DNA of 64,000 nt, from assembly GCA_905234245.1 (NCBI GenBank), contig CAJOGN010000026.1:1-64000 (forward strand), written 5' to 3'. The translations under genes and the position numbers were made by a program. Numbering within the stretch: the stretch's first letter is position 1; each line of letters opens with the position of its first letter. Below, piece by piece: positions 40,035-46,825 of this stretch. The stretch is from an uncultured Lachnospiraceae bacterium. Lineage in GTDB: Bacteria > Bacillota > Clostridia > Lachnospirales > Lachnospiraceae. The notes under the pieces were generated by a model. It was not told the DNA's origin. It did no database searches and was given only the letters and a program-made list of their open reading frames with translations.

Positions 40035-43000
40035 CTATACTCTGGCAAATAATTGCTTAGTCACATAATCTAGTCCCTGATACTCCTTCATCTCCTCGAG
40101 CAAATCCTTCTCCTCATTATAGAGAAGGTCTGATTGCATCTTATTGATTCTGTCATATCTGCTATTGCCATCATTAATAATGTCATTATATACAAGTACA
40201 TCCTTCTTAAGTACATCCTCTTCATCAAGCCTATGTACCTCGTAGTAGATATTATCGCCGAAGAATAATACGAATTGCTTTACATATATTCCTGGATACA
40301 TCTCAAGCATCTCTTCAAACTGAATATCATCCTCGTTCTTCTTGTATATAATATTGATTCTCTCATTAGCATTTCCATGATACTCAGCAAACTGCTTATC
40401 ATAGAGATGATATTTAATAATCAACTGCCTGTCCATATTCTTGAAAAATGAGAAATATACATTCTTAACAACATACTCTCTAACAAGACTGTCAAGTATA
40501 TTAAGTTCATTCTCCTTAAGATTATCCATGAAGCACAAATGCTTCATAAGGGCAATCTTACAAGCATCATTCAACTTATCAGAACGATTATATTGCCTGA
40601 ATATGAACGAAGCATCGAACTCATCTAAATCATCAATGGCTTCATTAATGTATTTGTTAGCAAAATATGTTAGGACCGCCTCTACTAACATCTTGTTATA
40701 ATCAGATGATACATAGGATTTAAATATGTCATGATAAGCATCACTAATATCCTCGCTATAGAACATCTGAACTAATATTCTGTCTTCTAGCTTATGAGTA
40801 TCAATGTTATGCTTTACCCCTTCTTTCCATAGCATTATCATCTTATCATTAGGGCCAACATATTCTTCACATAGGAAATTACATACATCAGGGTCTAATT
40901 CTTCAGAACCTATTATGCTAGCACATAGGGATACGAAAAAGGATGAAGTAGTCTCCTCTACATCTTCTTTAATCATATAACTACATAATTTATTAATGTA
41001 CTTTTTCTCAACATAGGAACCATTATATGTACTTACTATATAATATGCTCTGTCGTAGCTCTCAGTTGATATAAATAAATCAATTATATATGAAAGGACT
41101 TCTGCATCTATCCTGTCAAAGGATACCTCTTCGCACAAGTGCCGCTCTATCATATCCTCTCTTCCATGCTTTTGTAAGAAATATATAAGCAAAGGATAAA
41201 GCTTAGCTTTATAGTCTGATGATATAGCCTTAGAAGAAATAAATGTCTCAACACAATGCAAATCCTCAATCTTAAGGGTCTCATCATCCTTGCCCCTAAG
41301 TATTGCAGGGAGAGAAGAATCCTTAAGCTCATCAAAGAATCGAATGACATAAGGCATAGATTCAGGTGATAGCTTCTTAAGATTATCTACCAAAGCATCG
41401 CTCTTAAGCAGGAACTCATACATGTAATCACCTGCAGAAGAATGTAATACTCCCTTCTTATCTTCTAAGAATATACAGAAATTCTTAGCAAAAATCGGAA
41501 CATAACATACATTATTCCTTACAGGTGCAATCACCGGATTCTCTAACTGCTCTGAAACAACTAAAACTCTTGTAATATCATCTCTTGCAACAGAGATTCT
41601 TGCTGTATGCAATAGCGGCGCAATACCCGCTGCCACATCCTCATTAATAATTCCATTATCTAATACATCCTGATAAATTATGGCAAGGGAATCGTCAATT
41701 CGTCCATATTGCATTTGTTCTATTGCAAATAATTCAATTGTGCGCAAGTATTGCTGATACAAGCTAGAGAAGTCATCCTTATGCAATACAACATTACTAT
41801 ATACAATAGCCTTCTTATCGTATGACATATTGCTTTGGTATTTGAAATACATTAAAAGTACCTGTGGCAGATTAACAAGATGCTCACCTTCTAGGCACAT
41901 AAGATATGCTTCATATACCCCTGTAATCCTCATCTCCTTATAGAGACATAGCTCATACCATCTTAGGAACTTTTCTCCATAAGAATTAGTACGCATCAGA
42001 TATCCAACAATAATCTCTAATGCACTATTGGTTGGATTAGCCTCATAAGCAGCACATGCTATCTTATATAATCTCTCATCATAAGTACTACATACATTAA
42101 GCAATGCCATGAATTGATCACTAATATCCTCTGTAAAGGCGTTATGTCTTCTTATCCAATTAAGAATCTTGATAACACACGGAGAAATATCTTTAATTAG
42201 ATACGGGTCCTGTCTATATATAGCATAGGCTTCAACATACAGATATGGTGTATCATATCCGTTATTTAACCACTGTGTTATGTCCTTAAGCTTCCTTGAA
42301 TTATTATTGCTATATTCGTTCCGCAAGAACAGTAGGAACCAGAACACACGAACATCATCTGGGTGACTTCTAAAAATCACCTCAATCTCATTAGTAAGTC
42401 TGTCTACATAACTTGGCTCCGGCTCTATTAAAGTGCATAGATACAGTAGATATGCCCACTTAACACTCTTCTTATCGCTAATATCCCTCTTAATCTTCTG
42501 GATAATCCATAAAGCTTCCTGCTTCTGTCCATTTGCAATATATGCATGAGCCTTCATAAGCTCATAGAACTCCACATCAGCTCCACATTTGTCATAGGAA
42601 GGCTCTATCCCCTCTTCCATAGCATATCTGATGTCTGTAATAAATGTATCTATTAGCTGTATACTTTTCTCAGCCCACTGTCCAGTAGTTATATGACGAA
42701 GTCTGTATTCCTCATAATTATAAAGGAATTCAACCTTACGTCTCTTCTTATCCTGGTAAGAAAAATCAACATAGGTGTCCTCACCCTCTAATCTTGCAGT
42801 AATCAAGAACTCCTTATGCTGATTGATTGTATCAAAAGAAATCTTGGCAAGATTAGTACCCTTATGCATACGATTCTTGTGAATATAATAATCAAAATGC
42901 AGCTTAGAGCCCAAGAAATAATCAGAATCTATATGCTCCTTCTCAATAGTAACAAAATCAGCATCAATTGATACATCAATCTCAACATTGCCCCATGTCG

Positions 43001-43652
43001 ACTTGGTAATTACAATCTCTTCCTTCTGGTTCTCGCAAATGTCATTGTATTCAGCTGATTCCTTGTCTAAGGTAATATCTATTCTGTCCTTTAGCTTGCA
43101 GGCAACAAGGAATTCTTCTAGATTATTAAGGCTTGGCACACTTCGCCTATATCCAAGATACAGAAGTCTCTTCTCCACATCTTCATCATCTATAATATCT
43201 ATAAATGCATCAGTATGGAAAATGTTATTAGCTTCGATGAAGTTCTCCTGGCAGAGCCTTCCAAAATCATCTAGGGAATTAATCTCTCCAATTGAAGACT
43301 TAATAGTCTTACGCACAAATGTAATCTTAATAGGAATCTCAAGAGTAGAACCATTGCCCACAACAATAAAGCAACCTTCTAATATATCATTTTTCTTAAA
43401 GTTGCTATGCTTAAGGGAATATTTAATTGTACTGCGAACTCCATCAAACTGATAATCTCTAGTAATAATGTATGGGTTAGTAGAATATATAACTCCTCTA
43501 ATGGATTGGTCATCTTCTCCGAATATATCAAATGAGCCTTCTAGCTTCGCTCCCACATCTAAAGTAATATCTATTTTATCCACAGAGCTTGCAATATTAA
43601 TTTGTCGAGAATCGAACTGTCCTTCAGACAATCGATATATCTTCTTACGCAA
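40035..43652 (-). CDS. DUF5717-like protein, 1205 aa (N-terminal beta-sandwich, long helical-repeat body)
   Basis: Long ORF next to the DUF5716 gene; N-terminal beta-rich segment and repeated helices. DUF name assigned from memory of co-occurrence, not a search. Confidence 0.65.
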   Translation of the reverse strand: MRKKIYRLSEGQFDSRQINIASSVDKIDITLDVGAKLEGSFDIFGEDDQSIRGVIYSTNPYIITRDYQFDGVRSTIKYSLKHSNFKKNDILEGCFIVVGNGSTLEIPIKITFVRKTIKSSIGEINSLDDFGRLCQENFIEANNIFHTDAFIDIIDDEDVEKRLLYLGYRRSVPSLNNLEEFLVACKLKDRIDITLDKESAEYNDICENQKEEIVITKSTWGNVEIDVSIDADFVTIEKEHIDSDYFLGSKLHFDYYIHKNRMHKGTNLAKISFDTINQHKEFLITARLEGEDTYVDFSYQDKKRRKVEFLYNYEEYRLRHITTGQWAEKSIQLIDTFITDIRYAMEEGIEPSYDKCGADVEFYELMKAHAYIANGQKQEALWIIQKIKRDISDKKSVKWAYLLYLCTLIEPEPSYVDRLTNEIEVIFRSHPDDVRVFWFLLFLRNEYSNNNSRKLKDITQWLNNGYDTPYLYVEAYAIYRQDPYLIKDISPCVIKILNWIRRHNAFTEDISDQFMALLNVCSTYDERLYKIACAAYEANPTNSALEIIVGYLMRTNSYGEKFLRWYELCLYKEMRITGVYEAYLMCLEGEHLVNLPQVLLMYFKYQSNMSYDKKAIVYSNVVLHKDDFSSLYQQYLRTIELFAIEQMQYGRIDDSLAIIYQDVLDNGIINEDVAAGIAPLLHTARISVARDDITRVLVVSEQLENPVIAPVRNNVCYVPIFAKNFCIFLEDKKGVLHSSAGDYMYEFLLKSDALVDNLKKLSPESMPYVIRFFDELKDSSLPAILRGKDDETLKIEDLHCVETFISSKAISSDYKAKLYPLLIYFLQKHGREDMIERHLCEEVSFDRIDAEVLSYIIDLFISTESYDRAYYIVSTYNGSYVEKKYINKLCSYMIKEDVEETTSSFFVSLCASIIGSEELDPDVCNFLCEEYVGPNDKMIMLWKEGVKHNIDTHKLEDRILVQMFYSEDISDAYHDIFKSYVSSDYNKMLVEAVLTYFANKYINEAIDDLDEFDASFIFRQYNRSDKLNDACKIALMKHLCFMDNLKENELNILDSLVREYVVKNVYFSFFKNMDRQLIIKYHLYDKQFAEYHGNANERINIIYKKNEDDIQFEEMLEMYPGIYVKQFVLFFGDNIYYEVHRLDEEDVLKKDVLVYNDIINDGNSRYDRINKMQSDLLYNEEKDLLEEMKEYQGLDYVTKQLFARV

Positions 43653-43820: not shown

Positions 43821-44909
43821 TTGAAGAACGATTATTATTTTCATGGAAGCGATATAGAAAAAATCAAAGAAAAATATAAGATAAAAAATGAAGAAATCAT
43901 TAACTTCGCAGCTAACGTTAATCCATTAGGCATTTCACCAAGGCTAAAATCAGAACTGTCTAATCACATGGACATAATCACAACATACCCTGACAGGAAT
44001 TATACCAGTCTTAAAAACTCTATAGCTGACTATCTTGGCACGAATACAGAGAATATCTTAGTAGGTAATGGAACTTCTGAACTTATATCATTATTTATTG
44101 AGATAATTAACCCTAAGAAAGCCATGATAATTGGTCCAACATATTCAGAATATGAGAGAAAGGTCACCTTAATGGGTGGAAATGCATATTATTTCCCTCT
44201 TCACGAGGATGAGGACTTCAAGCTGGAGGCTGATTGTCTAATTGACAAGCTCGACAGAAGCATTGATATGCTAATAATGTGCAACCCTAATAACCCAACA
44301 TCTTCCTGTGTGGACCTTGTAACAATCAGAAAAATATTAGATGCTTGTAAGGAGAATCATATATACGTTCTCATTGATGAAACCTACATAGAATTCGTAA
44401 CTTCAATTGAGGCCTATTCTGCAGTATCTCTATCAGAATACTACAATAATGTTATTATTCTTCGAAGCACATCGAAATTCTTTGCATGTCCAGGACTGCG
44501 TCTTGGTTATGCAATAATAGGCAATACCGACTTAATGTCACAGATTAACCAAAGCAAGAATCCCTGGATGATTAACTCTATTGCAGCCAAAGCAGGTGAA
44601 ATCATGTTCGCTGATAGTAAATACATCAAGGATACCTCGGACTTAATTAACAAGGAAAGAGACTTTATGTATAACGCATTCCTAGCAACAGATGGTTTCA
44701 AACCATATAAGCCTTATGCCAACTTCATGCTTGTTAAGATTAACAAGCCGAATATCACCAGTAAGGATATATTCGAAGGAGCGATTAATGAAAGGATGCT
44801 GATTCGCGACTGCTCCACCTTCCCCTTCTTAAGCAATGAATACTTCCGCTTCTGCTTCATGGAGCATGAAGACAATCTAAAATTATTAGACTGTATTAGG
44901 AATATATAA
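43821..44909 (+). CDS. PLP-dependent aminotransferase, CobD/HisC-like (TTG start)
   Basis: NFAANVNPLGISPRLKSEL, CNPNNPTSSC, VLIDETYIEF, RSTSKFFACPGLRLGYAI (PLP lysine). Confidence 0.85.
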   Translation: MKNDYYFHGSDIEKIKEKYKIKNEEIINFAANVNPLGISPRLKSELSNHMDIITTYPDRNYTSLKNSIADYLGTNTENILVGNGTSELISLFIEIINPKKAMIIGPTYSEYERKVTLMGGNAYYFPLHEDEDFKLEADCLIDKLDRSIDMLIMCNPNNPTSSCVDLVTIRKILDACKENHIYVLIDETYIEFVTSIEAYSAVSLSEYYNNVIILRSTSKFFACPGLRLGYAIIGNTDLMSQINQSKNPWMINSIAAKAGEIMFADSKYIKDTSDLINKERDFMYNAFLATDGFKPYKPYANFMLVKINKPNITSKDIFEGAINERMLIRDCSTFPFLSNEYFRFCFMEHEDNLKLLDCIRNI

Positions 44910-44918
44910 AATAAAATT

Positions 44919-45147
44919 AGTGCCAGTGTATATAATTTTTTTCAGAAAGATTGATTCAAGCGTCTGAATATGTTAGTAATTGATTACATGAGGTAAATTT
45001 TCACCACGATGGTGAAAATAGGTGTTCATCGGCTGAGCCGAATTGAACACCGGTTACCGTCAGAATGTTTCAGAAACGACACATCAATTACTTACATATT
45101 CACAGCGAAGAATCACTTGCTGAAAAAGTATTATATACACTGACACT
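44919..45147. ncRNA. Candidate structured RNA or MITE: two ~65-nt imperfect inverted arms enclosing internal hairpins
   Basis: Left arm 44919-44984 pairs with right arm 45083-45147; inner hairpins TTTTCACCA-CGA-TGGTGAAAA and GGTGTTCA-TCGGCTgAGCCGA-ATTGAACACC; lies between convergent genes. Confidence 0.6.
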
Positions 45148-45185: not shown

Positions 45186-45953
45186 CTAGAACTGCGCTCC
45201 AAGATTATCCATGGTGTCTATTATGATTACGCAATCCTGAAGGATATTCTTAATTAGAAGCTTCATAATATCTTCAGGAATCTCTACGCTTCCATTAGTA
45301 TATGGTCTGTCAGAGCTCAAACACTTAATGAATATCTGCGAACCTTTACCAATTTCTTCTTCAGGATTAAAGTCAATTCCAATACAGAATTGATCTTCAT
45401 ACTCTAATTCATATAAATGCTCACTAGTCTGTTCATCTAGGTCATTATACTGCTTTATATTAACCAAAGCATTAAATGGTATTTCACCATCTGTCTCACC
45501 AGTCCAATACATAGCATCTATTACTGATGTATATGGCATTTTGCAACCAGGACTTGGCGCAATACCACAGTTTCTCTTAATGCGATATCTTCCAATAGGA
45601 GTCTTATCACTACCTTCTTTATGCTCTTCGTCTGGAACCATTCCATTCTTACCAATTACACCTGGTGTTGAAAGTATCTGCTTCCAGTTACCTTCCTTGT
45701 CCTTATTATGCAATGACACATAAGCAGTAGATTTATCCATCCCCATTCCAGCAACAATTAATAGCTGATTCTTATCTTCTATGTCAGGCAGCTTCGTAAC
45801 CCAATCAGGAGAATCCACCTCGTCTTGTATTGATGAATGAAGATATACCTCAGCTTGCTGCTTCTCAGGATCATTCTCTCTAACGCCATCACATCCAACA
45901 AGCATTATACACATTAGAGCACATATTGCTATTACTAATACACGCTTTTTCAT
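45186..45953 (-). CDS. YkuD (L,D-transpeptidase)-like lipoprotein, catalytic Cys/His replaced
   Basis: Lipobox-like signal IMLVGCDG; IFIKCLSSDRPYTNGSVEIPE where the paralogue has IFLHCLGPQKPFTGGCVAVPE. Confidence 0.8.
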   Translation of the reverse strand: MKKRVLVIAICALMCIMLVGCDGVRENDPEKQQAEVYLHSSIQDEVDSPDWVTKLPDIEDKNQLLIVAGMGMDKSTAYVSLHNKDKEGNWKQILSTPGVIGKNGMVPDEEHKEGSDKTPIGRYRIKRNCGIAPSPGCKMPYTSVIDAMYWTGETDGEIPFNALVNIKQYNDLDEQTSEHLYELEYEDQFCIGIDFNPEEEIGKGSQIFIKCLSSDRPYTNGSVEIPEDIMKLLIKNILQDCVIIIDTMDNLGAQF

Positions 45954-45985
45954 AACTCAAACCCATAAACCCACAATATAAAATA

Positions 45986-46762
45986 CTAGAACTCTGCCTT
46001 AAGGCTCTCCATTGTATCTATTACTACTACACAATCCTTATCAACGTTCTTCATTATTAATTGCATAATATTCTCTGGAACAGCTACACATCCGCCAGTA
46101 AATGGCTTTTGCGGTCCAAGACAATGCAAGAATATTGCAGAGCCTCTTTTTGGTGTTCCTTCTTCATTAAAGCTTATATTCAAGCAATACTGATATTGAT
46201 ATTCGTAATCAATTATATGTTCACTATCATCCTTATTAAGATTAGGAACTTGCTTGATATCTACCATCTGATTATATTGGTTATTAACATCACCTGACCA
46301 ATATGTATCATCATTAACCTTGGTATATTCTATTGCACATCCTATATCATCAGCTATTCCAAATGCTTTATTAAAATGATACGTTCCAATTGGTGTCTGA
46401 TTACATCCTTCAACATGGGCTGCATCAGTACATAGTCCATTCTTACCAACAAAAGCAGGGGAAGATAGAATCTGCTTCCAATTACCACTATCATCCTTCT
46501 TATGCATAGACACATAAGCAGTAGTCTTATCCATTCCCATTGCCGCAACAACAAATAGCTGATTTGCATTAGCTGCAGCAGGAAGATTTTTCACCCAATC
46601 TGGCGAATCAACCTCATGCTGTATAGAAGAATGAATGTCAACCTTTGTCTTAGCATCAACCTTGCTAAGATCTGGCTCACTATCACCACCACAGCCTACT
46701 AAGGCTAATCCCATAACAGCAATCAAGGACACTGCAATAATGACCTTCTTGTTCATATATCT
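45986..46762 (-). CDS. YkuD (L,D-transpeptidase)-like lipoprotein, catalytic motif intact
   Basis: Lipobox-like ALVGCGG; FLHCLGPQKPFTGGCVAVPE matches the His...[S/T]xGC pattern. Start at MNKKVIIAVS preferred. Confidence 0.82.
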   Translation of the reverse strand, partial: RYMNKKVIIAVSLIAVMGLALVGCGGDSEPDLSKVDAKTKVDIHSSIQHEVDSPDWVKNLPAAANANQLFVVAAMGMDKTTAYVSMHKKDDSGNWKQILSSPAFVGKNGLCTDAAHVEGCNQTPIGTYHFNKAFGIADDIGCAIEYTKVNDDTYWSGDVNNQYNQMVDIKQVPNLNKDDSEHIIDYEYQYQYCLNISFNEEGTPKRGSAIFLHCLGPQKPFTGGCVAVPENIMQLIMKNVDKDCVVVIDTMESLKAEF

Positions 46763-46825
46763 ACCCCACTTTCTGCCCAAATGTATATTTTAATAATACA
46801 TTGTAATTATGCCAAAAACAAGCAA

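Follow-up and report, generated by a model that had tools for sequence, protein, structure and literature searches.

A loop-degenerate, diverged copy of the TwoAYGGAY RNA family between convergent Lachnospiraceae genes, and a proposed link of the family to CsrA

What is a 230-bp element of nested hairpins doing between two convergent genes, and is it a terminator, a structured RNA, or a mobile repeat? The question arises from a 64,000-nucleotide stretch of DNA from an uncultured Lachnospiraceae bacterium (the window), in which a preliminary description, made from the sequence alone, had noted such an element and named it a candidate structured noncoding RNA (ncRNA) or MITE. The hairpin lies at positions 44919 to 45147, exactly where it had been placed, and is well beyond what chance produces: when one arm is aligned to the other in reverse-complement orientation the score is 44, whereas 300 shuffles never exceed 18 and 9,043 other places in the window, aligned with the same geometry, never exceed 24. 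The folding energy is about −100 kcal/mol on either strand (z = −12), and none of 200 shuffles was equally good. The neighbors are indeed convergent; a class I/II aminotransferase gene (CobD/HisC-like; 43821 to 44909, forward strand) has its stop codon 9 bases ahead of the outer arm, and a gene for a lipoprotein-like protein (45186 to 45953, reverse strand) approaches from the other side. The product of the latter is, judged directly from the translations, a paralogue of the adjacent YkuD-domain protein (45986 to 46780), and within this pair (45186 to 46780) the cutoff of the YkuD (L,D-transpeptidase) family is reached by the second gene only. Elsewhere in the window, positions 40035 to 43652 encode a 1205-aa protein whose function is not known, with DUF5717 spanning its whole length.

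The element is one of many. Extra copies, a check suggested in the preliminary description, were recovered by both DNA and model searches in the window's own genome (G000) and in its relatives, here seven congeneric genomes (G001 to G007). The DNA search identified 12 further places in the own genome at 69 to 83% identity and matches in six of the seven congeners, and outside the genus it returned nothing beyond one 27-base match. Covariance model R1, built from an alignment of 31 copies, identified at least 26 distinct places in G000 (about 26) and at least 45, 23, 8, 19, 7, 40, and 49 in G001 to G007, respectively; R1 scored the best 150 first-look candidates per genome, so these counts are minima. 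Opposite-strand matches at the same place were removed by hand, and a few of the low-scoring places are fragments.

The 31 aligned copies share a common structure consisting of an 18-pair stem with a conserved T·T mismatch (P1), a stem of 5 pairs (P2), a 10-pair hairpin (P3), and a two-tier hairpin (P4), together with a variable segment into which some copies have a hairpin of about 40 nt inserted. The conserved core of the window copy extends from 44951 to 45115 on the forward strand (156.6 bits with R1), and all of its parts are given on that strand. P1 is formed by TCTGAATATGTTAGTAATTGAT (44963 to 44984) and ATCAATTACTTACATATTCACA (45083 to 45104), whose two sides are recognizable by the conserved inverted repeat, the conserved T·T mismatch, and compensatory changes, and P2 by GGTAA (44992 to 44996) and TTACC (45054 to 45058), which correspond to columns 43 to 47 and 116 to 120 of alignment A1 and covary. 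P3 (ATTTTCACCA CGA TGGTGAAAAT; 44997 to 45019) and P4 (GGTGTTCA..TCGGC TGA GCCGA..TGAACACC; 45021 to 45051) are the 9-bp hairpin and the two-tier hairpin that had been pointed out before, and both match conserved, covarying helices of the family. A GTTTC/GAAAC stem reported alongside them does exist in the window sequence, but it lies in the variable segment, which varies freely or holds the insert in other copies, and it therefore falls outside the conserved structure. The insert (CGTAAGAGGGGACCCGCAC..GTGCGGGGAGATGTCTTACG) is of the same kind in several copies (L003, 1518 to 1700; L010, 1497 to 1680; L011, 1376 to 1562; L022, 1416 to 1600; L037, 1497 to 1680).

A covariation analysis, likewise proposed at the outset, was performed on a larger set of 76 copies; 97% of the cells are paired, and 35 of the 40 pairs are doubly substituted, a result reached in none of 500 shuffles. 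Comparison of the pair counts with shuffles and with slid partners indicates that the structure is under selection. Conservation extends to the loops; among the 74 full copies of G000 and G007, GGA is present in the P3 loop of 72 and in the P4 loop of 54, with 54 copies having it in both loops and 18 in P3 alone. The two copies lacking it in P3 are the window copy and G000:C40:29463, both of which read ACGAT. The P4 loop of the window copy reads CTGAG, leaving no AYGGAY loop in either hairpin.

This architecture, two hairpins on a long stem with 168 positions in both models, is that of TwoAYGGAY (RF01731, clan CL00106). The preliminary description had recognized no Rfam family, and while the family is in Rfam, the window copy itself is not matched by the Rfam model, either at the gathering cutoff of 43 bits or up to an E value of 10. 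Its relatives are matched: copies from other genera score 102 to 142 bits, the nearest relatives of the window copy 67 to 69 bits, and all eight congeneric loci searched, with the window copy excluded, 47.8 to 77.6 bits. Both genomes of this genus in a family-level search carry RF01731 matches, and the core of the window copy is up to 88% identical to that of L015, which scores 67 bits with RF01731. Sequence comparison thus indicates that the window copy shares descent and secondary structure with the TwoAYGGAY family; it escapes the Rfam model because it is too diverged and GGA is lost from both loops, and since the defining loops are absent we file it as a loop-degenerate, diverged variant. 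The genus as a whole also departs from the Rfam consensus in that the first Y of the loop is frequently A or G. The window element represents a degenerate copy of a known, unexplained RNA family rather than an ordinary terminator or a new class of RNA; for this family we found no tested function in the literature since it became known in 2010.

Outside the core of about 165 nt, most copies carry an outer inverted repeat of their own, 30 to 45 bp overall and typically 30 to 40 bp where it could be traced, in a set where many copies are unscored, as ungapped trimming stopped early. In the window copy the 5′ arm (44919 to 44950) pairs with the 3′ arm (45116 to 45147), both on the forward strand, so that the element is paired over its full span, and the arm sequences are specific to this copy. 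Mismatches flanked by Watson-Crick pairs in the outer stems are strongly asymmetric, with 107 G·T versus 18 A·C on the family strand; the ratio is 45:10 with one copy per ortholog cluster and 30:6, 17:1, 15:2, and 41:8 in the four gene contexts. Only roughly the first 28 bp show the bias (93:8), which is gone beyond (14:10). Because G·T and A·C counts swap on the opposite strand, the bias identifies which strand is selected for its fold, namely the one of AYGGAY polarity, independent of the orientation of neighboring genes; this family-wide asymmetry, together with R1, assigns the window element to the forward strand. The most economical interpretation is an RNA of some 220 to 230 nt, but a bias of the same sign would arise from DNA that folds as a single strand of fixed polarity. 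Between orthologs the outer arms are either near-identical or unalignable, and 11 comparisons contain 11 G·U changes, 4 single and 2 double breaks, and 1 double compensation, numbers too small to build on. Across all copies, the 5′ arm from about −48 to −20 relative to the core is C-poor and G-rich, giving an outer duplex whose 5′ strand is rich in G and A and whose 3′ strand is rich in C and T.

Selection on a stable stem could also be explained if the copies were mainly long two-way terminators or barriers at gene 3′ ends, with GGA loops that are incidental or serve something other than CsrA. Gene 3′ ends do lie near the outer arms, with medians of about 50 bp to the core where the flanking genes converge, as they do in the window; in G004, the closest relative at the window locus (90% identity), a plain hairpin of about 30 bp replaces the element at the same place; and some copies, such as G006:C12:20401, have lost most of the core but retain the stem. 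Intrinsic terminators share with the window element a very stable stem and a place between convergent genes. The stem here, however, is several times longer, conservation of GGA in the loops and of the P2-P4 architecture goes well past what termination needs, the strand polarity holds in all gene contexts, and the 3′ arm is not followed by a run rich in T (mean of 3.0 T in 10 bases). We consider this explanation unlikely as the main role of the family, though it deserves to be taken seriously.

With genes called by a simple ORF rule, only 11 of 161 copies overlap an ORF, the remainder being intergenic, and in the 155 copies with both neighbors called the orientations (57 −−, 48 ++, 32 +−, and 18 −+) show no preference. 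The Rfam type field of RF01731 is “Cis-reg,” which would make each copy the leader of a downstream gene, but a downstream gene in sense is present for just 66 of these 155 copies, orientation flips between orthologs, and the discoverers who described the family scored it as not cis-regulatory (PMC2864571). A cis-regulatory leader is accordingly a very improbable reading.

Copies lying within 300 bp of each other are arranged in a regular manner, with 24 of 25 nonoverlapping pairs divergent and their 5′ ends facing (L101, L104, L113, L129, L147, and L165, among others); this count includes orthologous pairs repeatedly, and G000, G001, G006, and G007 each give the divergent order only. Match lists from other genera agree, with eight of nine close pairs divergent at gaps of about 180 to 460 bp. 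In the tightest divergent pairs (gaps of 71 to 95 bp) the outer arms occupy nearly the whole gap, leaving no space for ordinary promoters between the paired copies. A dedicated promoter found no support in the copies as a set, which counts against the CsrA reading favored below; sense-side promoter scores are lower than antisense scores (medians of 4.5 versus 5.8, P = 0.001), and no upstream promoter consensus or positional motif was found.

The units have also changed place and orientation. Two ortholog pairs have cores that are inverted relative to their flanks between species. In G003, the aminotransferase gene that adjoins the element in the window is likewise followed by a copy, a shortened one, which shares its core edges and some 46 nt of each outer arm with another copy elsewhere in that genome, indicating that arms are able to move with the unit. 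We had entertained target-derived arms, with the core inserted into a preexisting terminator stem, and discarded this idea on account of the arms shared between G003 loci; the alignment of G000 and G004 arms at the window site is too weak to decide arm origin.

Dispersal in many copies, the shared arms, the flipped cores, and the regular divergent pairing could all reflect a mobile DNA repeat, either MITE-like or a single-strand hairpin that serves a recombinase as substrate, in which the fold matters as DNA and not as RNA. The family does resemble MITEs and other dispersed palindromic repeats in being short, intergenic, palindromic, and present in tens of copies, but it differs in its branched core, its strand-polar selection, and the divergence of its copies, which carry compensatory changes. 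Within a genome, the median identity between nearest paralogues is only 74 to 77%, with a single pair at 97% (in G006), and the spread therefore appears mostly old, without the near-identical recent copies by which a MITE would be recognized. As originally noted for the window, no target-site duplication is evident, here at two copies inspected by eye in the alignment, and the co-occurrence with csrA and flagellar genes described below would be unexpected. A purely DNA-level repeat is in our judgment improbable. The repeat-like life of the family is nonetheless real, with tens of dispersed, divergent copies per genome and at least one duplication of a whole unit to a second locus, and the structured ncRNA side is borne out by covariation, by the excess of G·U over A·C, and by homology to RF01731. 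The two halves of the original proposal are not mutually exclusive; this is an ncRNA family spread in repeat fashion.

The hypothesis that TwoAYGGAY binds CsrA was published in 2014 on the basis of a loop-motif match (PMC4333381). Using strict filters, by which weak carriers are missed, we found RF01731 in 45 of 299 family-level genomes, nearly all of different genera. csrA is present in 44 of these 45 carriers versus 111 of 254 others (P = 4e-13 in a test that ignores relatedness among genomes), whereas a control gene of similar frequency, cas1, is present in 16 of 45 versus 108 of 254 (P = 0.42); the window's own genome carries csrA. The flagellar gene flhA is found in 45 of 45 carriers, so the association ties the family to the complex of CsrA and motility and cannot single out CsrA. 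This co-occurrence with csrA and flagella but not cas1, the copy-specific outer stem with G·U-type mismatches, and the divergent close pairs are the new elements of the present analysis.

Taken together, the reading that we favor, with confidence slightly better than even, is that the window element is a diverged TwoAYGGAY copy and that in this family selection acts on the fold of the AYGGAY strand, with CsrA binding or titration as the proposed role. It rests on homology, covarying structure, strand polarity, copy number, and co-occurrence with csrA and flagella, while transcription of each copy, CsrA binding, and titration are steps that we infer. The selected form would consist of a long outer duplex with two hairpins at its closed end; the ANGGA loops of these hairpins may present paired binding sites to dimeric CsrA, and the tens of dispersed copies could jointly titrate the protein or provide local docking sites. 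The copies that keep GGA in P3 and not in P4 speak against the CsrA interpretation, which is still the best-supported functional hypothesis for the family. With GGA lost in both loops, the window copy is predicted to bind CsrA no longer, and its remaining long hairpin between convergent genes probably acts as a two-way transcript end.

Sponge RNAs of the CsrB type are encoded by one or a few genes per genome, whereas the family described here has two putative sites per RNA and at least 7 to 49 dispersed copies per genome. CsrB, CsrC, RsmX, RsmY, and RsmZ, which are described as known only from Gammaproteobacteria and as having many sites per RNA, are similar in carrying GGA in hairpin loops and in the proposed titration of CsrA (PMC4333381). 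A tentative extension is that the family forms a distributed CsrA sponge, made up of tens of scattered two-site RNAs, often in divergent pairs, that spread as repeats and decay singly, the window copy being a dead one. If true, this would give CsrA control an RNA component and present a repeat family kept for its RNA; FliW is, to our knowledge, the sole CsrA antagonist known in this bacterial group. The csrA co-occurrence, the strand-polar G·U signal, and the copy number make the CsrA question directly testable, and GGA-less copies such as that in the window, which are missed by the Rfam model, offer natural negative controls for binding.

In G000, flhA is in three pieces with a best E value of 1.4e-114, far weaker than in every congener searched (1.3e-264 in G007), reflecting either a broken gene or an assembly break; if motility is decaying in this genome, this might be related to the two GGA-less copies, both of which are in G000. 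Finally, 5′-half remnants of another copy adjoin intact copies at L147 (in the gap before G007_C5_51005) and similarly at L208 and L129, as if an older copy had been interrupted or partly replaced by another, and the copy at L119 (G000:C9:15600) is apparently chimeric, with a 3′ flank that matches G006 copies at >90% and a different 5′ arm that no longer pairs with it.
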